From assembly GCF_900188405.1 (NCBI RefSeq), contig NZ_FZOF01000004.1, positions 372,001 through 436,000 on the forward strand: a stretch of 64,000 bases of DNA, read 5' to 3'. Origin of the DNA: Actinacidiphila glaucinigra (GTDB lineage Bacteria; Actinomycetota; Actinomycetes; Streptomycetales; Streptomycetaceae). Below are positions 2,292 to 19,909 of this stretch, piece by piece. Every line of letters starts with the position of its first letter. The stretch's first letter is position 1. The translations under genes and the position numbers were made by a program. Below the pieces are notes generated by a model. That model was not told where the DNA came from, did not search any database, and worked only from the letters and a program-made list of their open reading frames with translations.

Positions 2292-4280
2292 TCAGCGCCC
2301 CGTGGGGACCGTGGTCGCGGTGCGGCGCGGGGCCGGCGGGACGTCCGCGACGCGCTGTGCGGCGGGCGCGTGCGGGGCCGCCGCGGCCAGGCCGCGCGCT
2401 CCGCCGACGAGCGGCAGCAGGGCACGCGAGCGGGCCAGGTCGAGGGTGACGGTGGGGGTGGTGTCGGGGGGCTCGACCATTCCCCCGTCGGTGCCGGCGA
2501 CGATCAGCGCGAGCCGGTGCCCGGCCGGGACGACGTGGTCGGTGGCGGCCAGGGTGACGGTGGCGGTGTACGCCCGGCCCGGGACGAGCGGACGCCCCTG
2601 CCACGCGGAGGCGGCGTGCCCGAGGTCGGCCCAGCCGCGGCTCACCACGGTGTGGGTGACGTCGGCCGCGTCGGTGGCGGTGTCGCGGAAGCAGGCGCTG
2701 TCGCCTTCCGTGCTCTCGCCCCAGCATGAGCGCGTGGCCAGGTCGACGATGCCCTCCTTGGCACCCAGGAAGTCCCGGACTGTGTCCGGGCCGAGGTCGA
2801 CCAGGACCGCCGAGAGGTGTGCGCTGGTGGTCGAGGAGGACGCGGTGACGGTGACCGTTCCGCTGCCGGAAAGCCTCAGGTCGCGCTTGAGGGTGCCGGT
2901 GGTGAAGACGGCCCTGGAGTCGCTCGGGGTGTCCGCCCCGGCGGCCCAGTCCTCCTCCCACTCCTGCGGCGTGTCGGTGAAGGCCGCCGTGCTGCCGGGC
3001 ACGGCGGGGGCGGTGCTCAGGCCGCCCTGGCCGGGGACGGCGCCGGGGCGCAGGTTCAGCCGGGTGGGTTCGGTGCCGGCGGGCGGCCAGGAGCGGTCGG
3101 TCGTCCACCGGTCGGGGGCGCGTTCGACGTCGGCACCGGGCTCGCGCTCCACGCCGTTGCGAACGCCGAGCAGGTAGTGGTCGAACCAGCGGTGCAGGGC
3201 GGACACCCATGCGTCGCGCCGGAAGTCGAAGGGGTCGACGTGGCCGGTCTGCGACAGCCACACCTTGCGTTCCACGCCGTGCGCGGCCAGCGCGCTCCAC
3301 CACTGGCCGAAGTGCTTGGTGCGGACGTTGAGGTCCTGCATGCCGTGGACGGCGAAGACGCTGGCGCGGACCTTCCCGGCGTCCTTGGTGTAGTCGCGTT
3401 CGCTCCAGAACCTGGTCCAGTCGCCGCTGCGGGGTGCCCCGTCTACGATGCGCTGCTGCACGGCGCCGCAGCGGGCGCGGGCGGCCGGGCTCTCGACGTA
3501 GTCCGACAGCCAGTCGGGGCCGGAGCCGTAGAGGGCGGCACCCTGCTGGAAGTAGTAGTCGTACCAGGAGCTGATGGCGCTGATCGGCACGATGGTGCGC
3601 AGGCCGCGCACCCCGGTCGCGGCGACGCCGTTGGCGATCGTCCCGTCCCAGCTCTTGCCGATCATGCCGACGTCGCCGGTGGACCAGCGGGCGCTCGCGG
3701 GCCGGGAGCCGGTGCGGGAGGTCCAGCCCTTGGCCCGGCCGTTCAGCCAGTCGATCACGGCCTTGGCGGAGCCGATGTCGGAGGGGCCGCCGACGTCCAC
3801 GCAGCCGTCGGAGCGGTTGGTGCCGGCCAGGTCGACCAGGACGACTGCGTAGCCGCGCGGGACGAAGTAGTTGTCGTAGTACAACGGGGCCTGGACCATG
3901 CGGCCCTGGTCGTCGTAGGTCTTCAACTGGCCCTCGTTGCCGCGTCCGCAGCAGGAGTAGTAGGGGCTCGCGTCCATGATCACCGGGACCTTGCGGCCGG
4001 CGGCCGCGGGCTCGCGGGGCCGCACGATGTCGGCGGCGACCCGGTCGGTGCGGCCGTCGCCGTCGTCGTCGCGGCCCGTCTCGACCCAGACGGCCTCGCG
4101 GACGGCGTCGGCGTAGGAGTAGTCCGGCCGGCTCAGCCCGTGCCGGACGGTCCCGGCGGCGGAGGCGGCCTGCACGGTGGCCACGGGGAGGAGGACGGCG
4201 GCGAGGGCGGCGATCACGGTCGCCACCAGGGAGGTCGTTCGTATGCGGATGCGGTCGGTACGGGGGCGGGTGGTGCGCAT
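2292..4280 (-). CDS. Secreted Xaa-Pro dipeptidyl-peptidase-like hydrolase (S15/CocE-NonD)
   Basis: A 662-residue exported alpha/beta hydrolase. Residues 1 to about 40 form an Arg-rich n-region, a hydrophobic core (SLVATVIAALAAVLLPVATV) and an AxA-type cleavage site. The catalytic domain holds the nucleophile elbow GKSWDGT and the downstream DRAS-like blocks, and is followed by the jelly-roll C-terminal domain usual in S15/CocE enzymes. The role expected from the family is removal of X-Pro dipeptides from extracellular peptides or hydrolysis of related esters/amides. I chose the ATG at 4280 over a GTG at 4292; neither has a clear SD. It is divergent from four aminopeptidase paralogues, which suggests a shared peptide-degradation role. 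Confidence 0.88.
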   Translation of the reverse strand: MRTTRPRTDRIRIRTTSLVATVIAALAAVLLPVATVQAASAAGTVRHGLSRPDYSYADAVREAVWVETGRDDDGDGRTDRVAADIVRPREPAAAGRKVPVIMDASPYYSCCGRGNEGQLKTYDDQGRMVQAPLYYDNYFVPRGYAVVLVDLAGTNRSDGCVDVGGPSDIGSAKAVIDWLNGRAKGWTSRTGSRPASARWSTGDVGMIGKSWDGTIANGVAATGVRGLRTIVPISAISSWYDYYFQQGAALYGSGPDWLSDYVESPAARARCGAVQQRIVDGAPRSGDWTRFWSERDYTKDAGKVRASVFAVHGMQDLNVRTKHFGQWWSALAAHGVERKVWLSQTGHVDPFDFRRDAWVSALHRWFDHYLLGVRNGVEREPGADVERAPDRWTTDRSWPPAGTEPTRLNLRPGAVPGQGGLSTAPAVPGSTAAFTDTPQEWEEDWAAGADTPSDSRAVFTTGTLKRDLRLSGSGTVTVTASSSTTSAHLSAVLVDLGPDTVRDFLGAKEGIVDLATRSCWGESTEGDSACFRDTATDAADVTHTVVSRGWADLGHAASAWQGRPLVPGRAYTATVTLAATDHVVPAGHRLALIVAGTDGGMVEPPDTTPTVTLDLARSRALLPLVGGARGLAAAAPHAPAAQRVADVPPAPRRTATTVPTGR

Positions 4281-4292
4281 GGGTGAAGGCAC

Positions 4293-4590: not shown

Positions 4591-6153
4591 ATGAAAGCTG
4601 TCCCGGCCTCGGGCCGAATACCCCGGCGCGGCCTGATCTGCACGCTCGCCGTGCTGGTGGCGTTCGGGCTGCTGCTCGCCACGTGCACCGCCGTGAGGCA
4701 CTCGGGCGGAACCGCCGGACCCGTCCCTACCGCGACGGCCTCCGCGAGTGCGTCCGACGCCGCGATCCGCGTGGACCTGCGGCGCTACTACACGCAGAAC
4801 CCGCGCTGGAGGCCCTGCCCCGAGCGGTCGTTCCAGTGCGCGAGCCTCAGGGTGCCGCGGGACTACGCGCACCCGGAGGCGGGCGACATCGCGCTGTCCG
4901 CGATCCTCAGGCCCGCCACCGGCCGCGGCGCCGCGCGTATCGGCGCGCTCCAGATCAACCCCGGTGGGCCCGGCCTCTCCGCCGTCGACGACCTGCTGGC
5001 CTACGCCGACAGCTACTCCCCGTCCCTGCGCGCCGCGTACGACCTGGTCGCGGTCGACCCGCGCGGCGTCGGGCACAGCACACCGGTGGAGTGCGGTGCC
5101 ACCGGCCTGCCGGGCGCCGGGACGCGCGGAACGCCTTCCTCGGACGAGGCCGCGATCATCGACACCTGGGCCGCCTACCACGCGGAGGTCGCCGAGGACT
5201 GCGCCCGGCGCGCCGGGCGGCTGCTGCCGCACGTGGGCACCCTGGACGCCGCCCGCGACATGGACGTCGTCCGCGCCGTACTGGGCGAGGACCGCCTGCA
5301 CTTCCTCGGCTTCTCCTACGGCACCTACCTGGGCGCCACCTACGCCGAGCTCTTCCCCTCCCGCGTCGGCCGGGTCGTCCTGGACGGCGCCGTCGACCCT
5401 GCCATGGACGGCTACCACGCCTACCTCAACCAGGCCCGCGGCTACCAGATCGCGTGGGACTCCTTCGCCGCCGACTGCGCCGGCCGCGGCCGCTGCCCGG
5501 TCGGCCACTCCGTCGAGGAGGCGGGCCGGACCCTGGACGCGCTGGTCGCCGCGCTCGACCGCGCGCCCCTTCGGCAGGGCAAGGACGACCGTCTCGACGG
5601 CGAGGCCCTGCTCGGCGCGGTCGTCACCGCACTGCGCGCGCCCGACTGGGAGACGCTGCGCTCGCTGCTCGACGGTGTGCGGGCCGGCGACGCCACTGTG
5701 CTGCGGGAACTCGTGGGCTCCGAGGACGACGCGACCGGTGACGAGTCCATGACGGCGGTCAACTGCCTGAGCTCCGCGCTCGAATCGCGTTCGACCCCGG
5801 CCCAGACGCTCGCGGCGCTGCCCGAGTTCCGGCGGGCCTCGCCGCAGTTCGGCGCGTTCTACAACGAGGACCTGTCGACGTGCGCCCACTGGCCCGCGCG
5901 GCCCACGCAGGTCCCACGCCGCGTCAGCGCCCACGGCGCCGGGCCCATCCTCGTGCTCGGCACCACCCGCGACCCCGCCACCCCCTACGACCAGGCCCGG
6001 GCCCTGGCCGGCCAGCTCTCCTCGGGCCGGCTCCTGACCTGGGACGGCGACGGGCACACCGCCTACCAGCGCGGCAGCCGCTGCGTCGACACCGCCGTCG
6101 ACGACTATCTGCTGCACGGTCTGCTCCCGCCCTCCGGCGCGGTCTGCCGCTGA
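4591..6153 (+). CDS. Tripeptidyl aminopeptidase-type alpha/beta hydrolase, array copy 1
   Basis: A 520-residue exported alpha/beta hydrolase of the SlpD/SlpE (TAP) family, which cleaves tripeptides from peptide N-termini. An N-terminal hydrophobic leader ends in LLLATC, a poor lipobox (Thr at -1). The oxyanion block is NPGGPG. The nucleophile is Ser242 in GFSYGTY, with Asp461 (TRDPATPY) and His489 (GDGHTAY) completing a TAP-type triad, and the C-terminal TAP cap runs to CR. The ATG at 4591 follows GAAGGCG. The frame is open further upstream, but that part lacks family similarity. It is the first of four tandem paralogues. Confidence 0.9.
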   Translation: MKAVPASGRIPRRGLICTLAVLVAFGLLLATCTAVRHSGGTAGPVPTATASASASDAAIRVDLRRYYTQNPRWRPCPERSFQCASLRVPRDYAHPEAGDIALSAILRPATGRGAARIGALQINPGGPGLSAVDDLLAYADSYSPSLRAAYDLVAVDPRGVGHSTPVECGATGLPGAGTRGTPSSDEAAIIDTWAAYHAEVAEDCARRAGRLLPHVGTLDAARDMDVVRAVLGEDRLHFLGFSYGTYLGATYAELFPSRVGRVVLDGAVDPAMDGYHAYLNQARGYQIAWDSFAADCAGRGRCPVGHSVEEAGRTLDALVAALDRAPLRQGKDDRLDGEALLGAVVTALRAPDWETLRSLLDGVRAGDATVLRELVGSEDDATGDESMTAVNCLSSALESRSTPAQTLAALPEFRRASPQFGAFYNEDLSTCAHWPARPTQVPRRVSAHGAGPILVLGTTRDPATPYDQARALAGQLSSGRLLTWDGDGHTAYQRGSRCVDTAVDDYLLHGLLPPSGAVCR

Positions 6154-6200
6154 CTGACCACCCGCCCCGCGCTCCGCGCGGCGCACAGAAAGGCGTGGCC

Positions 6201-7730
6201 ATGAACGCACCCCGACGCAGGCTCCACGGCTTCGTCGCCGTGCTCGGCAGCTGCGGGCTGCTGCTCACCGCGTGCGCGGCGGGCGACCTCCGGCAGACTC
6301 CGGCCGGGGCGCTCGCGGCCGCACCCGCAGTGGGTGCCGCCGGCGCCGTACCGGCGGAACTGGCGCGCTACTACGGGCAGAAACCGGGCTGGAAGGCCTG
6401 CGCCGGGGTGCCGTCGTTCCAGTGCGCCGACATCGAGGTGCCGCTGGACTACGACCACCCCGAGGGGGGCGACATCACCCTGGCCGCGATACGCCAGAAG
6501 GCCACCGGGAGCGGCGCCGCGCGCGTCGGCTCGCTGCAGATGAACCCCGGTGGCCCGGGCTCGTCCGCGATCGCCTACCTCCTCGGCAACGCCGACTCCT
6601 TCTCCCCCGCGGTGCGCGCCGCGTACGACCTGGTCGCGGTCGACCCGCGCGGCGTCGGCGCCAGCACCCTGGTGAACTGCGCCACCGGGACCCCCGCGGC
6701 GGCCCCGGACCCCGGTGCGCGCAGGGCGGACATCGGCGCCTCGGCCGCGGCCTACGCGGAGGTCGCGGCCGAATGCCGCCGCCACGCGGGGCGGTTGCTG
6801 CCGCACGTGAGTACCCTGGACGCCGCCCGCGACATGGACGTCATACGCGCCGTGCTCGGCGACAAGCAGCTGCACTACCTGGGGTTTTCCTACGGCACGT
6901 ACCTCGGCGCCACCTATGCCGAGCTGTTCCCCTCCCACGTCGGCCGCATGGTCCTCGACGGCGCCGTCGACCCCGCCCTGGACGGATACGACTTCACGAT
7001 CGGACAGGCCCGCGGCTACGAGGTCGCCTGGAAGTCCTTCGCCGCCGACTGCGCCACCCGGCCCGACTGCCCCGTCGGGCACTCGGTCCAGGAGGCCGAC
7101 CGCATCCTGAACACCCTGGTGGCGACGCTGAACCGGACTCCGCTGCGGCAGGGCAAGGACATCACGGTGACGGGAGACTCCGTCCTCGGAGCGGTCGTCC
7201 TGGGGCTGCGGTCCCCGGCCTGGGAGGCGCTGCGTGCCGCGCTCGCGCAGCTGCGGGCCGGAGACACCACGGCGGTGCAGGCGCTCCTGGGCGTGGACGA
7301 GGAGAGCGACCCGGGCGACCAGTCGTACTACGCCGTGTCGTGTCTGAGCTCCACGTTGGGAACGTGGTCGACCGTCGCCCAGGCGCAGGCGGCGCTGCCC
7401 GATTTCCGGCGCGCCGCACCGCAGTTCGGCGCGTACTACGCCGGGACCCTGCCGATGTGCACCCAGTGGCCCGTCCGTCCGGACCAGTCCGCGCACCCGA
7501 TCACCGCGGCCGGGGCGGCGCCGATCCTGGTCGTGGGCACTCTGCGTGACCCGGCCACCCCGTACCCCTGGGCGCAGGCGCTCGCCGGGCAGCTCTCCTC
7601 CGGGCGGCTCCTCACCTGGGACGGCGACGGGCACACCGCTTACCACCAGGGCAGCACCTGCGTCGAGAGCGCCGTCGACGACTACCTGACACAAGGTCAG
7701 CTCCCACCCTCCGGCACGGTCTGCGTCTGA
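6201..7730 (+). CDS. Tripeptidyl aminopeptidase-type alpha/beta hydrolase, array copy 2
   Basis: A 509-residue paralogue of the preceding gene, collinear over its whole length. The signal region ends LLLTAC, a good Streptomyces lipobox, so this copy is probably a lipoprotein. The triad is Ser230 (GFSYGTY), Asp in GTLRDPATPY and His in GDGHTAY. ATG 6201 is preceded by GAAAGGCGTGGCC, nearly the same ribosome-binding context as copy 1 (GAAGGCGTGGCG), so the duplication included the leader. The gap to copy 1 is 47 nt, and the genes are probably cotranscribed. Confidence 0.9.
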   Translation: MNAPRRRLHGFVAVLGSCGLLLTACAAGDLRQTPAGALAAAPAVGAAGAVPAELARYYGQKPGWKACAGVPSFQCADIEVPLDYDHPEGGDITLAAIRQKATGSGAARVGSLQMNPGGPGSSAIAYLLGNADSFSPAVRAAYDLVAVDPRGVGASTLVNCATGTPAAAPDPGARRADIGASAAAYAEVAAECRRHAGRLLPHVSTLDAARDMDVIRAVLGDKQLHYLGFSYGTYLGATYAELFPSHVGRMVLDGAVDPALDGYDFTIGQARGYEVAWKSFAADCATRPDCPVGHSVQEADRILNTLVATLNRTPLRQGKDITVTGDSVLGAVVLGLRSPAWEALRAALAQLRAGDTTAVQALLGVDEESDPGDQSYYAVSCLSSTLGTWSTVAQAQAALPDFRRAAPQFGAYYAGTLPMCTQWPVRPDQSAHPITAAGAAPILVVGTLRDPATPYPWAQALAGQLSSGRLLTWDGDGHTAYHQGSTCVESAVDDYLTQGQLPPSGTVCV

Positions 7731-7736
7731 CGGGCG

Positions 7737-9314
7737 GTGGCCGCCGTGCGGGCCACGGGTGTCCGGTCCGGCAGGCGCGGGCGCATCGCGGCCGGGCTGC
7801 TGAGCGCCTGCCTGGTGCTGGCCGCCTGTTCGCCCCAGCGCCCGCACCGGCCGGCGGGCACCAAGCGGCCCGCGACCGCGACCACTCCGGTCGGCTCCGC
7901 CGCCTCTGCGGCGGCGTCCGCGGCGGCGTCGGCGGCGTCGGCGCCGGACGTGTCCCGCTACTACCGGCAGCGACTGGACTGGCGGCCCTGCCGGGAAGCG
8001 GCGTCGTTCCGGTGCACCTCGGTGACGGTGCCCCTGGACTACACCCGTCCGGAGGCGGGCGACATCCGGCTGGCGGTCGCCCGCCACCGGGCCACCGGTC
8101 CGCGCGCGGCCCGGCTCGGCTCGCTGCTGCTCAATCCCGGCGGACCCGGAGTGTCGGCGGTCGACGACCTCCTGTCCTTCGCCGACGGCTTCTCCCCCGC
8201 GATACGCGCCGCGTACGACCTGGTCGGCGTCGACCCCCGAGGGGTGGGGCGCAGCGCCCCGGTCGACTGCGGGACGGGCACTTCGCTGCCCGCCCCCGAG
8301 GACGAAGAGGAGGCCGTGGGGCCCGGGTCGGGCTTCGCGCTGATCGCCGGCGCGTGCGCACGGAACGTCGGACACCTCCTGCCCCACGTCGGCACCCCCG
8401 ACGCCGCCCGGGACATGGACGTCGTACGGGAGCTGCTCGGCGACGACCGGCTGGGTTTCCTCGGCTACTCCTACGGCAGCTACCTGGGGGCCACCTATGC
8501 GGAGCTCTTCCCCTCCCGCGTCGGCCGCATGGTCCTCGACGGCGCCGTCGACCCCGGCATGGACGCCTTCCGCGCCACCCTCGGCATGGCGCGCGGCTAC
8601 CAGGTGGCCTGGGACGCCTTCGCCGCCGACTGCGTCTCCCGCCCCGGCTGCCCCGTCGGCCACTCGCTCCGGGACGCGGGCCGCGTCCTGGACGGCCTGG
8701 TCGCGGAACTCGACGAAGCCTCCCGGAAGGTGAACGCCCGCGGCGTCTCCGCCACCGGCGACGATCTGCTCACCGCGGTCACCTCGGCACTCGCGACGCG
8801 GACGTGGGCCGGACTGCGCTCCCTGCTCCGCGAGGTGCAGGCGGGCGACGCCGCCACCCGGCGACTGCTCCTCGGCACGGACGACGCCGGAGGACCGGGT
8901 GAGCAGTCCCTGGCGGCGGTCAACTGCCTGAGCTCCGCGCTGGGTCCGCGGTCGACCGACGCGCAGACTCGTGCGGCCGTGCCCGAGTTCCGCCGTGCGG
9001 CACCACAATTCGGCGCCTACTACGCGGGGTTCCTCCCGATGTGCGCCCACTGGCCGGCCCGCCCGACCCAGGTGCCGCACCGCATCACCGCCCGCAGCGC
9101 CCCGCCCATCCTCGTCGTCGGCACCACCCGCGACCCCGCCACCCCCTACGACCAGGCCCGGGCCCTGGCCCGCCAGCTCTCCTCGGGCCGGCTCCTCACC
9201 TGGGACGGAGACGGGCACACCGCCTACCAGCGCGGCAGCCGCTGCGTCGACACCGCCGTCGACGACTACTTCCTGCACGGCCGGCTCCCACCGGACGGCA
9301 CCGTATGCCGCTGA
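7737..9314 (+). CDS. Tripeptidyl aminopeptidase-type alpha/beta hydrolase, array copy 3
   Basis: A 525-residue paralogue starting with GTG only 6 nt after the previous stop, so translation is probably coupled. It has a clear lipobox LVLAAC, then an Ala/Ser-rich linker (SAASAAASAAASAASAP) that would tether the catalytic domain to the membrane surface. Catalytic motifs are NPGGPG, GYSYGSY (Tyr and Ser replace the Phe and Thr of the other copies next to the nucleophile), TRDPATPY and GDGHTAY. The changed elbow may mean a shifted substrate range. Long DNA runs match copies 1 and 4. Confidence 0.9.
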   Translation: MAAVRATGVRSGRRGRIAAGLLSACLVLAACSPQRPHRPAGTKRPATATTPVGSAASAAASAAASAASAPDVSRYYRQRLDWRPCREAASFRCTSVTVPLDYTRPEAGDIRLAVARHRATGPRAARLGSLLLNPGGPGVSAVDDLLSFADGFSPAIRAAYDLVGVDPRGVGRSAPVDCGTGTSLPAPEDEEEAVGPGSGFALIAGACARNVGHLLPHVGTPDAARDMDVVRELLGDDRLGFLGYSYGSYLGATYAELFPSRVGRMVLDGAVDPGMDAFRATLGMARGYQVAWDAFAADCVSRPGCPVGHSLRDAGRVLDGLVAELDEASRKVNARGVSATGDDLLTAVTSALATRTWAGLRSLLREVQAGDAATRRLLLGTDDAGGPGEQSLAAVNCLSSALGPRSTDAQTRAAVPEFRRAAPQFGAYYAGFLPMCAHWPARPTQVPHRITARSAPPILVVGTTRDPATPYDQARALARQLSSGRLLTWDGDGHTAYQRGSRCVDTAVDDYFLHGRLPPDGTVCR

Positions 9315-9406
9315 CGGGCACCGCGTCACGGACGTCACCACGTACCACGTCACCACGCACCACTTCACCACGCACCACTTCAGCACGACATGGGGAAGGC
9401 AGGGCG

Positions 9407-10972
9407 ATGGACGCTGTCCGGCACACCGGCCACGGACCCGGGAGGGGACGACACCGCATGGTCGCGGCAGTGGGCGCCTGCGCTCTGCTCGCGACCGCGT
9501 GCGCCTGGCTGCACGCCGGGAAGCCGCCCGCCGCGACCCGCCTGGCAGCGCTCGGTGCGGCCCGCTCCGTTGACGTGCGGCCGGAACCGGCCCGCCACTA
9601 CACGCAGCGGCCCGTGTGGCAACCGTGCGAGGACGAGCCGTCCTACCAGTGCACGACCCTCGCGGCGCCGCTGGACTACGCCCACCCCGAGTCGGGCGAC
9701 ATCACCCTGGCCGTCACGCGCCTGAGGTCCACGGGGACCGCCTCGGAACGCATCGGCTCGCTGCTGTACAACCCCGGTGGCCCCGGGGACTCCGCCATCG
9801 ACGGCCTGCGGGGGATCGCCGAGGACTTCTCCCCCGCGATGCGCGCCGCCTACGACCTGGTCGCCGTCGACCCGCGCGGTGTCGGTGCCAGCACCCCGCT
9901 GGACTGCGGCTCCGCCGCGCCGGCTCCCGCCACCGGCTCCCGTCCGTTCGCCGGCGGGAAGCCGGACTTCGAGGCCCTGGACGAGGCGCGCGCGGAGACC
10001 GCCGACGCGTGCCTACGGCACTCCGGCCGGCTGCTGCCCCACGTCGGCACCCCGGACGCCGCCCGCGATCTGGACCTGGTGCGCGCCCTCGTCGGTGACG
10101 AGCGGCTGCACTACCTCGGCTTCTCCTACGGCACCTACCTCGGCGCCACCTACGCGGAGCTCTTCCCCTCCCGCGTCGGCCGCATGGTCCTCGACGGCGG
10201 CGTCGACCCCACGATCGACGGCTACCGCCGCTTCCTGGATCCCGCACACGGCTACCAGGTGGCCTGGGAGGCCTTCGCCGCCGACTGCGCGCGCCGCCCC
10301 GGCTGCCCCGTCGGCCGCTCCCCGGCGGAGGCGGGCCGGGTCCTGGACGCCCTGGTGGCCCGTCTCGACCGGAGCCCGCGGCGGGAGGGCAAGGACGTCG
10401 CCGTCACGGGGGCCGATCTGCTCCGCATCGTCCTGGCGGCGCTGAAGAGGCCCGCGTGGGACGAACTGCGCCTGGCGCTGGGCGAGATGGTCGCCCCGGC
10501 CGGCGACACCGCCGCCCTGCAGCGGCTCTCCGCCGCGGAGGAGGAGGCCGTCGCCGACGTCGGGTTCACGGCGGTCAGCTGCCTGAGCGCGGCACTGGGG
10601 CCCGTGTTCACTCCCGCGCAGGCGGAGGCGCTGCTCCCCGCGTTCCGGCGTGCCTCGCCCCAGTTCGGGGCGTACTACTCCGCGCTGCTCACCACCTGCG
10701 CCCACTGGCCCGTCGGCCCGGCCCGCCCCGCTCAGGCCTTCTCGGCTCCCCCGACCGCGCCGATCCTGGTCGTCGGCACCCTGCGCGACCCGGCCACCCC
10801 GTACGCCTGGTCGCAGGCGCTCACCCGGCTGTTCCCCTCCGCTCGGCTCGTCACCTGGGACGGCGACGGGCACACCGCCTACCTGCAGCCCGGGAGCGCG
10901 TGCGTCGACGCCGCGGTCGACCGGTACCTGCTCAGCGGCCGGCTCCCGCCCGCCGGCACGGTCTGCCACTGA
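9407..10972 (+). CDS. Tripeptidyl aminopeptidase-type alpha/beta hydrolase, array copy 4
   Basis: A 521-residue paralogue and last gene of the array. ATG 9407 follows GGGGAAGGCAGGGCG. The leader ends LLATAC, a borderline lipobox. It has NPGGPG, GFSYGTY, GTLRDPATPY and GDGHTAY, so it looks catalytically competent. The 92-nt gap from copy 3 contains short direct repeats (caccacgcaccactt), the widest spacing in the array. A 12-bp hairpin downstream ends the transcript. Substrate differences among the four copies cannot be inferred from motifs alone. Confidence 0.9.
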   Translation: MDAVRHTGHGPGRGRHRMVAAVGACALLATACAWLHAGKPPAATRLAALGAARSVDVRPEPARHYTQRPVWQPCEDEPSYQCTTLAAPLDYAHPESGDITLAVTRLRSTGTASERIGSLLYNPGGPGDSAIDGLRGIAEDFSPAMRAAYDLVAVDPRGVGASTPLDCGSAAPAPATGSRPFAGGKPDFEALDEARAETADACLRHSGRLLPHVGTPDAARDLDLVRALVGDERLHYLGFSYGTYLGATYAELFPSRVGRMVLDGGVDPTIDGYRRFLDPAHGYQVAWEAFAADCARRPGCPVGRSPAEAGRVLDALVARLDRSPRREGKDVAVTGADLLRIVLAALKRPAWDELRLALGEMVAPAGDTAALQRLSAAEEEAVADVGFTAVSCLSAALGPVFTPAQAEALLPAFRRASPQFGAYYSALLTTCAHWPVGPARPAQAFSAPPTAPILVVGTLRDPATPYAWSQALTRLFPSARLVTWDGDGHTAYLQPGSACVDAAVDRYLLSGRLPPAGTVCH

Positions 10973-11032: not shown

Positions 11033-13432
11033 TCAGCCGCGGCGTCCGTTGCCTCCGCCGAGGCCCTTGTCGAGCCCGGCACGACGCAGGGCGTCGGCCA
11101 TGGCGCCGCCGGGGGCCGGACGGTCGCGGTCGCCCCGGGACTGGCGCGGCGGGTTGCCGCCCCGGCGGTCGGGACGGGGACCGCGCTCCTGGCGTTCGGG
11201 GCGGGGACCGCGCTCCTGGCGGCCGCCGCCGCCGGCGTTGCCCTTGGGCGCGCCCGCCTCGTCCTCCAGGCGGAGGGTGAGGGAGATGCGCTTGCGCGGG
11301 ATGTCGACGTCGAGCACCTTGACGCGGACGATGTCGCCGGGCTTGACGACCTCGCGCGGGTCGCTCACGAAGTTCCGGGACATCGCCGAGACGTGCACGA
11401 GACCGTCCTGGTGGACGCCGACGTCCACGAAGGCGCCGAAGGCCGCCACATTGGTGACGACTCCCTCCAGGACCATGCCGGGCTCGAGGTGCTTGAGCTC
11501 CTCCACGCCCTCCTTGAAGGCGGCGGTCTTGAAGGCGGGCCGCGGGTCGCGTCCGGGCTTCTCCAGTTCGGAGAGGATGTCGCTGACCGTCGGCAGACCG
11601 AAGGTGTCGTCGACGAACTCCTGCGGCCTCAGCCCGCGCAGCACCGTGGCGTTGCCGATGAGCGCCTTGATGTCGGTGCCCGCCGCCGTGCTCATGCGCC
11701 GTACGACCGGGTACGACTCGGGGTGCACGCTGGACGCGTCCAGCGGGTCGTCGCCGTCGGGGATGCGCAGGAAGCCGGCGCACTGCTCGTACGCCTTCGG
11801 GCCGAGCCGGGCCACGTCCTTCAGGGCGGTGCGCCGGCGGAACGGGCCGTTGGTGTCGCGGTGGGCGACGATGTTGGCGGCCAGGCCCTCGGTGATCCCG
11901 GAGACGCGGCGCAGCAGCGGCACGGAGGCGGTGTTGACGTCGACGCCGACGCCGTTCACGCAGTCCTCGACGACCGCGTCGAGGGAGCGCGAGAGCTTCA
12001 CCTCGGACAGGTCGTGCTGGTACTGGCCGACGCCGATCGACTTGGGGTCGATCTTGACGAGTTCGGCGAGCGGGTCCTGGAGCCGGCGGGCGATGGACAC
12101 CGCGCCGCGCAGCGACACGTCGAGTTCGGGCAGCTCGGCGGAGGCGTAGGCGGAGGCGGAGTACACCGAGGCGCCGGCCTCGGAGACGACGGCCTTGGTG
12201 AGCTTCAGCTCCGGGTGGCGCTTGACGAGGTCCGCGGCGAGCTTGTCGGTCTCGCGGGAGGCGGTGCCGTTGCCGATGGCGACGAGGTCGACCTTGTGGG
12301 CGGCGGCGAGCCGGGCGAGGGTCGCGATGGAGGCGTCCCACTGGTTGCGCGGCACGTGCGGGTAGATGGTGTCGGTGGCGACGACCTTGCCCGTCGCGTC
12401 GACCACGGCCACCTTGACGCCGGTGCGGAAGCCCGGGTCCAGGCCCATGGTGGCGCGCGTGCCGGCGGGGGCGGCCAGCAGCAGGTCGCGCAGGTTGGCG
12501 GCGAAGACCCGGACCGCCTCGTCCTCGGCGTCCTGGCGCAGCTGGACGCGCAGGTCGAGGCCGAGCCGCACGAGGAAGCGGGTGCGCCAGGCCCAGCGCA
12601 CGCTGTCGCCGAGCCACTTGTCGGCGGGGCGGCCGCGGTCGGTGATGCCGAAGTGGTGGGCGATCTTGCGCTCGAAGGTGGAGGGGCCCTCCTCGACGGG
12701 CTCCTCGGGCTCCATGGTGAGGTCGAGGACCTCCTCCTTCTCGCCGCGCAGCATGGCGAGCACTCGGTGCGAGGGGAGCTTGGTGTACGGCTCGGCGAAG
12801 TCGAAGTAGTCCGCGAACTTCGCGCCCTCCTCCTCCTTGCCCTCGCGCACCTTGGCGACGAGCCGGCCCCGCTCCCACATCCGGGTGCGGAGTTCGCCGA
12901 CGAGGTCGGCGTCCTCGGACCACCGCTCGGTGAGGATCGACCGGGCGCCCTCCAGCGCCGCCGCGGCGTCGGCGACGCCCTTGTCGGCGTCGACGAAGCC
13001 GGCGGCCTCGGCCTGCGGGTCCAGGGACGGATCACCGACGAGGCGGTCGGCGAGGGGCTCCAGGCCGGCCTCGCGGGCGATCTGCGCCTTGGTGCGCCGC
13101 TTGGGCTTGTAGGGCAGGTAGATGTCCTCGAGGCGGGCCTTGGAGTCCGCGGCGAGGATCTGCGCCTTCAGTGCGTCGTCGAGCTTGCCCTGGGAGTCGA
13201 TGGACTCCAGGATCGCGGCCCGCCGCTCGTCCAGTTCGCGCAGGTAGCGCAGGCGCTCCTCCAGCGTCCGCAGCTGGGCGTCGTCGAGGCCGTCCGTCGC
13301 CTCCTTGCGGTACCGGGCCACGAACGGCACGGTCGCGCCGCCGTCGAGCAGCTCGACTGCCGATGTGACCTGACCTTCCCGTACGCCGAGTTCCTCGGCG
13401 ATCCTGCGCTCGACCGAGACCGTTGTCGTCAC
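11033..13432 (-). CDS. tex: Tex family RNA-binding protein
   Basis: A 799-residue Tex protein, slightly longer than the usual ~770-790. It has an N-terminal helical domain ([32 protein letters not shown] is cut here to its start, [10 protein letters not shown], a hallmark of the family), the YqgF/RNase H-like core (GLDPGFRTG), tandem helix-hairpin-helix motifs ([12 protein letters not shown]) and a C-terminal S1 domain ([14 protein letters not shown]). The last ~70 residues are a basic Arg/Gly/Pro tail containing a repeated ERGPRP unit, probably an added RNA contact. Tex acts in transcription and RNA processing and is not essential in most hosts. The start is GTG. Confidence 0.95.
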
Positions 13433-16301: not shown

Positions 16302-18260
16302 TCAGGCGGTGTGACAGTGGCCCTCGCCCCGCGGGGTCTCCTTGGGGAGGTCGAGCGAGGGGTTGCGGTCGAAGAAGCCGGTGGGCTTGAGGGTGAACCC
16401 GCTGTGGTCGACGGGCATGACCGGCCACTCCTCCAGCCGCGGCAGGTGCGTGGGGCCGAAGGTGTGCCAGACGGTCAGCTCGGTGTCCTCCAGCGACTCG
16501 CCCCCCGCGGTCCACAGGGGCAGTCCGGCGCCGCCCGCGTTCTGGTTGGGGTAGTCGCCCGCGGGGAAGCGCCGCTCGGGGCGGTGCCGGGTGACCCACA
16601 CGTGCTTGGTGCCGTAGGCCATGCGGCGGGCGACCGCCGAGTCCGGCTGGGCCAGGACGACCGGGCCGGGCTGCGGTACGAGGGTGTACGCCACGGGCTT
16701 GCCCATGCGGTTGAGGGAGCCGGGGTTGGTGATCCGCCAGCGGCGGCCGGCCAGCGGGTCGGCGAGGCGGCCGCCCTCGGCGCTGTCGGCGACGGGGGTC
16801 ACGCGGGTGGTGAAGACGTTGCCGTTGGGGTTGTCCGGTCCGCTCGGGACGGGGACGACGTCCACCTCCTCCACCGTGTTGGCGTGGCCGTCGACCGCCG
16901 CGTCCAGCCGTACGCAGAACAGGTGCTGGTGGAACGGGGCGAGCAGGCCGGGCGCGACCTCCGTGCCGACCGCGTCGGCGGTGCCGGGCTCGACGGCGGA
17001 GGTCTGCACGATGCCGGTGGACTTGGCCTCGAAGCCGATCGTGCCGTCCTGGTGGAAGTACCAGTAGAAGCCGTAGTCGTAGTTGCCCACGGTGGCGATG
17101 TAGGAGACGACCAGGCGGCGCGCGCGGCGGCTCTCGGCGGCCATGTCGTTGAAGATGTCGGTGTGCTTCCACAGGAGGCCGTAGTCCTCCTCGTGGATGC
17201 AGATGGCGTTGGGCAGCGTCTCGGGGTTGCCGAGGTCGTCGGAGAGGACGGCGTCGAGGTAGGTGATCTCGCCGAGGCAGTCGCAGCCCAGCTTCAGGGC
17301 GTTGGCGTTGCGGCCGAGGGAGTACTCGCCCGCGTCGAGGAAGGCGACCCAGTTGCGGTCGTCGCCGGGCTCGGCGTAGGCGACGGCCATCTCGGCCAGG
17401 GAGGCCCGGTGCAGCACGGGGCGGACGCGGTCGCCGTCCTCGTGGCCGATCTGGTGCAGGACCAGGCCCTCGCGGCCGTTGAAGTCGATGCGGAAGCGCC
17501 ACTTCTGCCACGTCAGCAGCCGGCCGCTCAGGGCGAAGGACGGTCCCTCGGGCTGGGTGATCTCCAGCGGGCGCAGGTCGGTGCGGGCCGGGCCGTTGAA
17601 CTCGGCCTCGTAGCGGCCGCATTCGGTGGGGATGGGCACGGCGCCGGTGTCGATGAGGCGGACGACCTTCCGCTCGATGACGTCGACGTCGGCGACGAGC
17701 CCGGCCACCGGGTGCGCCCAGGGGCTGTCGGAGGCGTTGCAGCGCAGCCAGGTCAGCGAGCGCATCAGGCGGGCGCCGGGGCGGTCCTCGAAGCGCAGCG
17801 GGCCGGCGCCGAGGGGGGCGGCGACGGCGAGGTCCAGGTCGGTGACGCCGCGTTCGGCCATGGCCTTGCGCCAGCCGGGGTCGGCCTTCACGACCTGCTC
17901 GACGATCTCGTACTCCTCGAAGGTGACCGGTGGCTGGCCCTCCTGCTCGGTGTCGAGTTCGCGGTGGGCGACGACGGCGCCCGCGGTGACGTCGACCAGG
18001 GCCTCGGCGGCGGCGCCGGTGAGCGAGTCGAGGAGGGTGACGCGCAGCCGGCGCACCACGGGGTCCCCGTCGCGGTGGGCGTCGGCGGTGTGCCGGTCGG
18101 GCTCGTCGAGGAGGACCAGGGGGAAGCGGGTCGCGTCGGTGACCCTGCCCTCCTCGGCGAGGATGCGGCGGGCGGCGGAGATCTCGTCGGCGGTCAGCGG
18201 GTCGAGGGGGTGGGGTGCGGCGGGCGCGGCGTCTGCGTCGGTGTGGCAGCAGGAGGACAT
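16302..18260 (-). CDS. Copper-containing primary-amine oxidase
   Basis: A 652-residue enzyme that oxidises primary amines to aldehydes with release of NH3 and H2O2. Tyr394 in the VGNYDY motif is the expected precursor of the topaquinone cofactor. Copper ligands are seen as HQH (in PFHQHLFC) and the late His in HTFGPTH. It has N-terminal N2/N3 domains and a C-terminal barrel, and no signal peptide, so it is cytoplasmic. I chose ATG 18260, which has AGAGGG 8 nt upstream; an ATG at 18314 has no SD. A Cys-Cys-His cluster (SSCCHTD) sits right at the N-terminus. It lies 104 nt downstream of an APC permease and is probably in the same operon. Confidence 0.94.
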   Translation of the reverse strand: MSSCCHTDADAAPAAPHPLDPLTADEISAARRILAEEGRVTDATRFPLVLLDEPDRHTADAHRDGDPVVRRLRVTLLDSLTGAAAEALVDVTAGAVVAHRELDTEQEGQPPVTFEEYEIVEQVVKADPGWRKAMAERGVTDLDLAVAAPLGAGPLRFEDRPGARLMRSLTWLRCNASDSPWAHPVAGLVADVDVIERKVVRLIDTGAVPIPTECGRYEAEFNGPARTDLRPLEITQPEGPSFALSGRLLTWQKWRFRIDFNGREGLVLHQIGHEDGDRVRPVLHRASLAEMAVAYAEPGDDRNWVAFLDAGEYSLGRNANALKLGCDCLGEITYLDAVLSDDLGNPETLPNAICIHEEDYGLLWKHTDIFNDMAAESRRARRLVVSYIATVGNYDYGFYWYFHQDGTIGFEAKSTGIVQTSAVEPGTADAVGTEVAPGLLAPFHQHLFCVRLDAAVDGHANTVEEVDVVPVPSGPDNPNGNVFTTRVTPVADSAEGGRLADPLAGRRWRITNPGSLNRMGKPVAYTLVPQPGPVVLAQPDSAVARRMAYGTKHVWVTRHRPERRFPAGDYPNQNAGGAGLPLWTAGGESLEDTELTVWHTFGPTHLPRLEEWPVMPVDHSGFTLKPTGFFDRNPSLDLPKETPRGEGHCHTA

Positions 18261-18364
18261 CGGGACAACCCTCTTGTGGACGTTGGTCGTTGCGCGGACG
18301 GGTGCTACGGACATGGAACCGGCCCGCCGCCCCCCGGGCCAGAGGGGCGACGGGCCGGACGGGG

Positions 18365-19909
18365 TCAGGAGGCGGCGGTCTCCGCGTCGGTGCCCGCGGA
18401 CTCACGGGCCTGCTCGATCCGGAACGCCTCGTTGCCGAGGCCGATGCGGGCGTGCACCTCGGGACGCGTGGCGCGCAGCACCGCCCCGTACACCAGGCCG
18501 CCGACGACGGCGGCGCCGATGATGCCGGGCAGCACCCAGGAGACGGCGGACCCGTCGCCGGCGACCAGGACGTCGAAGTCCTTGACGGCGTAGACGGCGA
18601 TGACGATCAGCGCGATGCCCGCCAGCGCGGAGGCGGCGATCCGCGGCGCCTGGGTGCGCAGCGCGCCGCGGCGGACGAAGTAGCCGATGACGGCGAAGGA
18701 CGCGGTCGCCAGCAGCACGATGACGCCCAGGGCGCCTACGTTGCCGAACCAGGTGAACAGCTTCAGCACGGGCGCGGTCGGGTCGTGGTCGGCCGCGGCA
18801 CTGCTGTCGGTGACGGCGAAGGCGACCACGAAGCCGAGGGACACCAGCGTCTGCAGCAGCGAGCCGAAGGCGGGGGCACCGCTGTTGGGGTTGGTGCGGC
18901 CGAAGGCGGAGGGCAGCAGGCCCTCGCGGCCCATCGCGAAGGCGTAGCGGGCGACGACGTTGTGGAAGCTGAGCAGGCAGGCGAACATGCCGGTCACGTA
19001 GAGGACGTGCAGGACGTCGGTGAAGGTGGCGCCGATGATGGACTCGCTGAGGCCGAAGAGCAGTCCGGGTCCCTGCTTCTGCGACTCCTCGACGATCTGC
19101 GACGGGCCGGCCGCGATGCTCAGCGCCCAGGAGCTGATGGCGAAGAAGACCGCGACGAAGGTGACGGCGAGGAAGGTCACCCGGGCGACCACGACCTGCG
19201 GCCGGCTGGTCTCCTCGGCGTAGACCGGCGACTGCTCGAAGCCGACGAAGCTGGCGATGCAGAAGCACAGGGCGGTGCCCAGGCCCGCGCCGCTGAGCGT
19301 GCTCGGGTCGAAGGCGTGCATCGACAGGCCCTCCTTGGCGGGGCTGCCGATGGCGGCGACGTCGAAGATGACGACGAGCGCGATCTCGATCAGCAGCAGG
19401 ACGCCGAGGACCTTGGCGTTGACGTCGATCTTGAGCCAGCCGAGCGCGCCGACCGCGAGGACGCCGAGGACGGCCGGGATCCACCAAGCGACGGTGGTGT
19501 CGAGATATGTCTGGAAGAGCCCGGAGATCTCGAAGCCGAACAGGCCGAAGACCGCGAACTGCATGGCGCTGTACGACACCAGGGCGACGAGCGAGGCGGC
19601 GGCGCCCGCGGTGCCGCCGAGTCCGCGGGCGATGTAGGCGTAGAAGGCGCCCGCGTTGTGGACGTGGCGGCTCATCTCGGCGTAGCCGACGCTGAAGAGG
19701 AGCAGCACCACGCCGAGGATGACGAACAGCAGCGGCTGCCCGACGATCCCCATCACGCCGTACGTGGTGGGCATGACGCCCGCGACCACCATCAGCGGCG
19801 CGCTGGCGGCGACCACGGAAAGGAGCAGGCCTGACATGCCGAGGCGGTCGGCCCGCAGGGCTCTCTCCTCGCCTTTGAACGTGCTGATCCCGCTGTTGCC
19901 CGTCAGCAT
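18365..19909 (-). CDS. APC-family amino acid/amine permease
   Basis: A 514-residue integral membrane protein with about 12 TM segments. TM1 carries the family's GLLLSVVAASAPLMVVAGVMPTTYG stretch (core ASAPLMV), an unwound Gly-containing helix that binds substrate, and TM6-like SFVGFEQSPVYAEET follows. It is expected to import an amino acid or amine with protons. ATG 19909 has AGGAAGGA 6 nt upstream. The gene precedes the amine oxidase in the same direction, so an amine is the most likely substrate; this is inferred from context. Confidence 0.9.
   Translation of the reverse strand: MLTGNSGISTFKGEERALRADRLGMSGLLLSVVAASAPLMVVAGVMPTTYGVMGIVGQPLLFVILGVVLLLFSVGYAEMSRHVHNAGAFYAYIARGLGGTAGAAASLVALVSYSAMQFAVFGLFGFEISGLFQTYLDTTVAWWIPAVLGVLAVGALGWLKIDVNAKVLGVLLLIEIALVVIFDVAAIGSPAKEGLSMHAFDPSTLSGAGLGTALCFCIASFVGFEQSPVYAEETSRPQVVVARVTFLAVTFVAVFFAISSWALSIAAGPSQIVEESQKQGPGLLFGLSESIIGATFTDVLHVLYVTGMFACLLSFHNVVARYAFAMGREGLLPSAFGRTNPNSGAPAFGSLLQTLVSLGFVVAFAVTDSSAAADHDPTAPVLKLFTWFGNVGALGVIVLLATASFAVIGYFVRRGALRTQAPRIAASALAGIALIVIAVYAVKDFDVLVAGDGSAVSWVLPGIIGAAVVGGLVYGAVLRATRPEVHARIGLGNEAFRIEQARESAGTDAETAAS

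Follow-up and report, generated by a model that had tools for sequence, protein, structure and literature searches.

A tandem array of four predicted S33 peptidase genes in Actinacidiphila glaucinigra that appears to predate the split from a congener, with probable gene conversion between the tails of two non-adjacent copies

Tap (TPP A), SlpD (TPP B) and SlpE (TPP C) of Streptomyces lividans are members of MEROPS family S33 and relatives of Hip1 (CaeA, Rv2224c) of Mycobacterium tuberculosis. SlpD and SlpE are described as mycelium-associated in PMC4022732, which also gives the catalytic triad of Hip1 as Ser228, Asp463 and His490 and counts 11 cysteines with 5 predicted disulphides. Two further papers place the S33 tripeptidyl-peptidases in one cluster with Hip1 (PMC11878206) and list an S33 tripeptidyl aminopeptidase-like secreted lipoprotein in S. 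lividans (PMC5994538). That prokaryotic paralogues, tuf among them, can evolve in concert is already well known (PMC6053082). We analyzed a 64,000-nt stretch of the Actinacidiphila glaucinigra genome (contig NZ_FZOF01000004.1, positions 372,001 to 436,000; the window), in which four genes for relatives of Hip1 stand in tandem (c1–c4; Table 1). In the literature looked at, whose coverage is limited, no paper on such a four-gene array was found. By description, the array enzymes resemble those of S. lividans as relatives of Hip1, and they differ in that four tandem and two dispersed genes form a clade apart from a single family-wide relative.

The initial annotation had described four collinear hydrolases of about 510–525 residues opposite an S15 peptidase, and this layout was confirmed, as were the lipobox endings that it listed (LATC, LTAC, LAAC and ATAC for c1 to c4). 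The start of c3 was placed at GTG 7737, 6 nt past the c2 stop, with GTG 7746 as a possible alternative. The gaps c1–c2, c2–c3 and c3–c4 measure 47, 6 and 92 nt, so that c1–c4 may form one transcript. A scan for promoter and terminator consensus sequences gave nothing above shuffles. The tandem repeat in the c3–c4 gap could vary c4 expression; the congener G001 also has a repeat in this gap (locus L051, 15610–15639; 8-nt unit CACCAGGG, 3.8 copies), the unit differing from the 15-nt unit here. A short, GC-rich tandem repeat (7908–7947; L051 14179–14244 in G001) encodes the Ala/Ser-rich linker of c3, which is longer in G001. Downstream of the array, a copper amine oxidase gene and an adjoining amino acid permease gene occupy 16302–19909.

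Table 1. The array, its flanking genes and features within it (positions counted from the first nucleotide of the window)
Feature	Position	Strand	Remarks
S15 Xaa-Pro dipeptidyl-peptidase gene, flanking	2292..4292	-	divergent from array
Copy 1 (c1), TAP-like S33 hydrolase	4591..6153	+	520 aa, lipobox-like LLATC
Putative converted tract in c1	5941..6108	+	aa 451-506, triad Asp461 and His489 inside; 97% over 165 nt vs c3
Copy 2 (c2)	6201..7730	+	509 aa, lipobox-like LLTAC
Copy 3 (c3)	7737..9314	+	525 aa, lipobox-like LVLAAC
Putative converted tract in c3	9102..9269	+	aa 456-511, triad Asp466 and His494 inside
Tandem repeat, 15-nt unit, 3.7 copies	9332..9387	+	c3-c4 gap, just 5' of c4 start region
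Copy 4 (c4)	9407..10972	+	521 aa, lipobox-like LLATAC
tex gene, flanking	11033..13432	-	convergent with array

All four proteins match Abhydrolase_1 and the TAP-like C-terminal Abhydrolase_4 over both Pfam cut-offs; in NCBIfam, none of c1–c4 had a match above threshold. The triad (S242, D461 and H489 in c1 numbering) is invariant in the eight array sequences and in 22 alignment rows and aligns with Ser228, Asp463 and His490 of Hip1, in keeping with the initial description of intact triads in all four copies. Besides the lipobox Cys, ten cysteines are invariant in the array proteins. By eye, a hydrophobic stretch and a Cys were recognized at the N-terminus of all four, c1 having Thr at –1. The nearest solved structure by sequence is Hip1, matched over its whole length at about 35–37% identity (E 1e-72 for c1, 3e-73 for c3), followed by TnmK1 and TnmK2 (PDB 8e18 and 8g5t; 8e-40 and 5e-33; 26–30% identity), which, in line with the entry title, are natural-product enzymes. 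A structural model, built for one copy of the four (c3; mean pLDDT 82.1, with residues 1–65 low and the Ala/Ser-rich linker of low confidence), predicts the fold with a large cap domain. It matches the Hip1 entries at Z 41.7–43.5 (5ugq: Z 43.3, rmsd 2.3 Å over 428 residues) and, with the same fold and cap, TnmK1 (8e19) and TnmK2 nearly as well, at Z 40.5 and 39.9. The nucleophile elbow GYSYG, annotated as a change peculiar to c3, is indeed present there, but it also occurs in Hip1, and the Ser that follows it recurs in the G001 orthologue of c2. By sequence, c1–c4 are assigned to peptidase family S33, tripeptidyl-peptidase/Hip1 kind, with predicted substrates; because TnmK1 and TnmK2 match the fold nearly as well, peptidase activity is predicted but not assured. 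For GroEL2, a substrate of Hip1, our data give no support to a link with the array locus.

A profile of the array retrieved six genes over 750 bits in this genome (G000) and six in G001, namely the array plus two dispersed copies, which in G000 lie on contigs C31 and C54 (G000:C31:146652 and G000:C54:62848). None of the 12 copies contains a TTA (bldA) codon. The C31 copy groups with c4 in both trees, which suggests that a copy has left or entered the array. A further relative, scoring near 500 bits, is common to most congeners, and all 35 genomes of the genus match at 1e-60. The comparison of array size proposed in the initial annotation recovered all four genes in G001, with order and neighbours unchanged, but the six-gene set in only 2 of the 35 congeners. 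Over 700 bits, only G000 and G001 were retrieved among 101 family genomes (14 candidates scored each); at a strict cut-off, with only three candidates scored per genome, 4 of 394 family genomes matched c1, and in two of the four the match was one gene only, 49–51% identical. Tandem sets of the TAP family appear not to be unique to this locus: among the matches listed, down to about 370 bits, there are pairs in G035, G062, G075, G077 and G087 and a triple in G085, four being the largest set seen.

Of the 35 genomes of the genus, 24 gave a match to the S15 gene, and 22 of these 24 are without the array. Twenty of these 22 array-less loci were read, and in 12 of them S15 and tex adjoin on the same strand without a TAP gene (gap between matches 187–1353 nt); in the remaining eight, the sequence read did not include tex. 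It is this junction that the array occupies, on the other strand, in G000 and G001. The junction is wider in L101, L109 and L114 (732–1353 nt), apparently with other material inside, and may therefore be a site where genes come and go.

The copies of G000 are denoted A and those of G001 B; six copies form 15 pairs, and the two genomes together give 30 within-genome pairs. Over the whole gene, array copies within a genome share 54–63% amino acid and 68–73% nucleotide identity and are not closer to each other than to their orthologues, which are 85, 90, 83 and 79% identical in amino acids for c1 to c4. Each copy pairs with its own orthologue at 100/100 support, both in a 63-row tree and in an 18-row tree without the C-terminal part. 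Synonymous codon identity, the share of identical codons at positions with no amino acid difference between two sequences, was 0.81–0.88 for orthologues and 0.63–0.73 for paralogues, chance being about 0.58 from codon usage. The orthologous array, the orthologue pairing and the near-chance synonymous identity of paralogues together indicate that the duplications predate the G001 split, being old relative to it by sequence, with the copies well separated. Pairwise dN/dS, a check also proposed initially, was 0.21–0.46 for orthologues (NG86; rough under strong codon bias), which points to purifying selection. The sister grouping of A1 and A3 had 99/95 support in the 63-row tree but only 27/30 in the tree built without the C-terminal part, and a duplication order drawn from it was dropped; an order is proposed only for A4 and A6 (93.5/89).

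Sites in each pair of copies were classed as O where orthologues agree, P where both copies within a genome share a state that sets them apart from the other genome, and X as the crossed control. O sites dominated all 15 pairs (235–299 vs 1–15 P). In c1–c3, however, six consecutive P sites, uninterrupted by any O site, span about 31 codons close to the 3′ end (0 of 20,000 label shuffles), five of them at third codon positions, and the cluster was recovered again with 12 sequences. The c1–c3 tract of Table 1 was reached in 0 of 2,000 codon shuffles. When codons were shuffled within the same amino acid, neither this A1–A3 tract nor the B1–B3 tract (229 nt at 93%), which has a different 5′ limit, was reached in 1,000 shuffles each; the lowest value among the other 28 pairs was 13 of 1,000, and no other tract remained after correction for the 30 within-genome pairs. 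Within the tract, 7 of 156 nt distinguish c1 from c3 in each genome, compared with 9/156 and 12/156 between the c1 and the c3 orthologues and 13/156 and 14/159 between those of c2 and c4. In 1,000 simulations without conversion, run on the orthology tree with independent sites and without codon structure, the largest P cluster over 15 pairs was 3 (6 observed), and no 156-nt window had fewer than 22 differences (7 observed). An AU test on the tract (159 columns) favoured the concerted tree by 10.6 log-likelihood units, the orthology tree being retained at p-AU 0.108. The tract was found by looking and was not fixed beforehand, and the comparison covers two array-bearing genomes only. Homogenisation of the last 165–229 nt of these non-adjacent copies in both genomes is, from these comparisons, well supported although not fully proven; c2, c4 and the rest of c1 and c3 appear to diverge freely. 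As in the concerted evolution of tuf, paralogues of one genome would be more alike than orthologues through gene conversion, here confined to the tail of two copies.

Around the nucleophile, where the initial annotation had seen long, nearly identical stretches, the best segments are 97–104 nt at 92–94% (pairs 1–4 and 3–4) in genes of only 68–73% nucleotide identity overall, and they are weak against the codon-shuffling control (p 0.071 for 1–4 and 0.0095 for 3–4; 2,000 shuffles, six pairs). Pairs 1–3, 1–4 and 3–4 have 24–26 O sites and no P site in 60 codons here. Recent conversion in this region was rejected, as orthology sites dominate in 15 of 15 pairs (17–32 vs 0–2 exchange sites per pair in 60 codons). 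The likeness is what a conserved protein combined with strong codon bias (third-position GC of the copies 0.93–0.95) can give; an old, pre-split exchange may have involved pair 3–4 (p 0.0095, 14 of 1,000), a signal not significant after correction for 30 pairs. Identity by position, another suggested check, thus places the annotated gene conversion at the 3′ ends of c1 and c3 and not at the nucleophile. The ribosome-binding context described as common to c1 and c2 is indeed shared; it recurs at A5, one of the dispersed copies, and in G001, and would therefore be inherited rather than recent.

The tandem position of the copies, on one strand and of one family, and the shared start context of c1 and c2 had led to a reading of recent tandem duplication within this genome. 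We regard this as extremely improbable: the four-gene array is older than the G001 split, the orthologous array with its 100/100 pairings counts against a recent origin unless one genome received the whole array from the other, and paralogue synonymous identity lies near chance. Horizontal transfer of the array, or of the six-gene clade, into the S15–tex junction, as opposed to its formation here by duplication with retention in this lineage alone, is a possibility that we place somewhat below even. The presence of the clade in only 2 of 35 congeners, the array-less junction in 12 of 20 loci and a gene of Streptomyces sp. RB17 inside the clade in the 63-row tree speak for it. However, RB17 has one gene only at that score level, placed at 81/33 without the C-terminus, no donor array was found, and no mobile gene was seen at the array edges. 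A plasmid search gave only relatives of 36–41% identity in 4 records, and a plasmid origin was set aside on these records, all below 42%.

That the c1–c3 tract is alike through purifying selection or overlapping coding, with no conversion, we consider unlikely. The tract does contain two of the catalytic residues, Asp and His, and its protein sequence is highly conserved, and the AU test is non-significant; yet c1 and c3 are closer within a genome than any of the four orthologue pairs, which indicates that the region is not unusually conserved, and the shared run falls mostly on third codon positions. It is rather doubtful that conversion is recurrent and favoured by selection, such that the catalytic tails of c1 and c3 would be re-copied across c2 while signal, linker and cap diverge; if so, the array would join front ends that vary to a catalytic tail held in common. 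The close structural matches to TnmK1 and TnmK2 could also mean that the enzymes are not peptidases but act in natural-product tailoring. This seems very unlikely, as Hip1 scores far higher by sequence and the immediate neighbours (MFS, S15 and tex genes) are not biosynthetic.

The interpretation that we hold to be probable is an exported S33 peptidase family, specific to this lineage and of the tripeptidyl-peptidase/Hip1 kind, with an old array and conversion of the c1 and c3 tails, and thus partly evolving in concert. The family would have reached six members before the sister-species split, four in tandem between S15 and tex and two elsewhere. Each pre-protein would be exported and, judging by eye, probably lipid-anchored at the lipobox Cys; the alpha/beta-hydrolase with its cap and Ser-Asp-His triad would then cut short peptides from the N-termini of extracellular peptides. 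By analogy, the array enzymes would release tripeptides from free N-termini, and the S15 enzyme alongside would take X-Pro dipeptides. The copies would have diverged under purifying selection. Gene conversion would have homogenised only the tails of c1 and c3, in one or more events that postdate the split and one or more that coincide with or precede it. Separate exchanges in the two lineages would be an alternative timing, not a required one, since one exchange before and one after the split can give P sites. The diversified anchoring and specificity proposed in the initial annotation gained no clear support: the lipobox differences are largely kept between orthologues, and the middle part of the genes is fastest in orthologues and paralogues alike, a pattern that relaxed constraint would explain as readily as new specificity would.

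The locus is a lineage-specific gene family of an ordinary sort; its one neat feature in evolutionary terms is the probable exchange between the c1 and c3 tails. It illustrates that, in a GC-rich genome, a striking DNA match near a catalytic motif can reflect no more than conservation; the real exchange here would lie elsewhere in the genes, visible only with an orthologous array. If more array-bearing species are found, c1 and c3 would provide a clean natural case for the length, direction and limits of conversion tracts between tandem streptomycete paralogues that have diverged, with all six copies as a ready set for studying how extracellular tripeptidyl-peptidases divide substrates.
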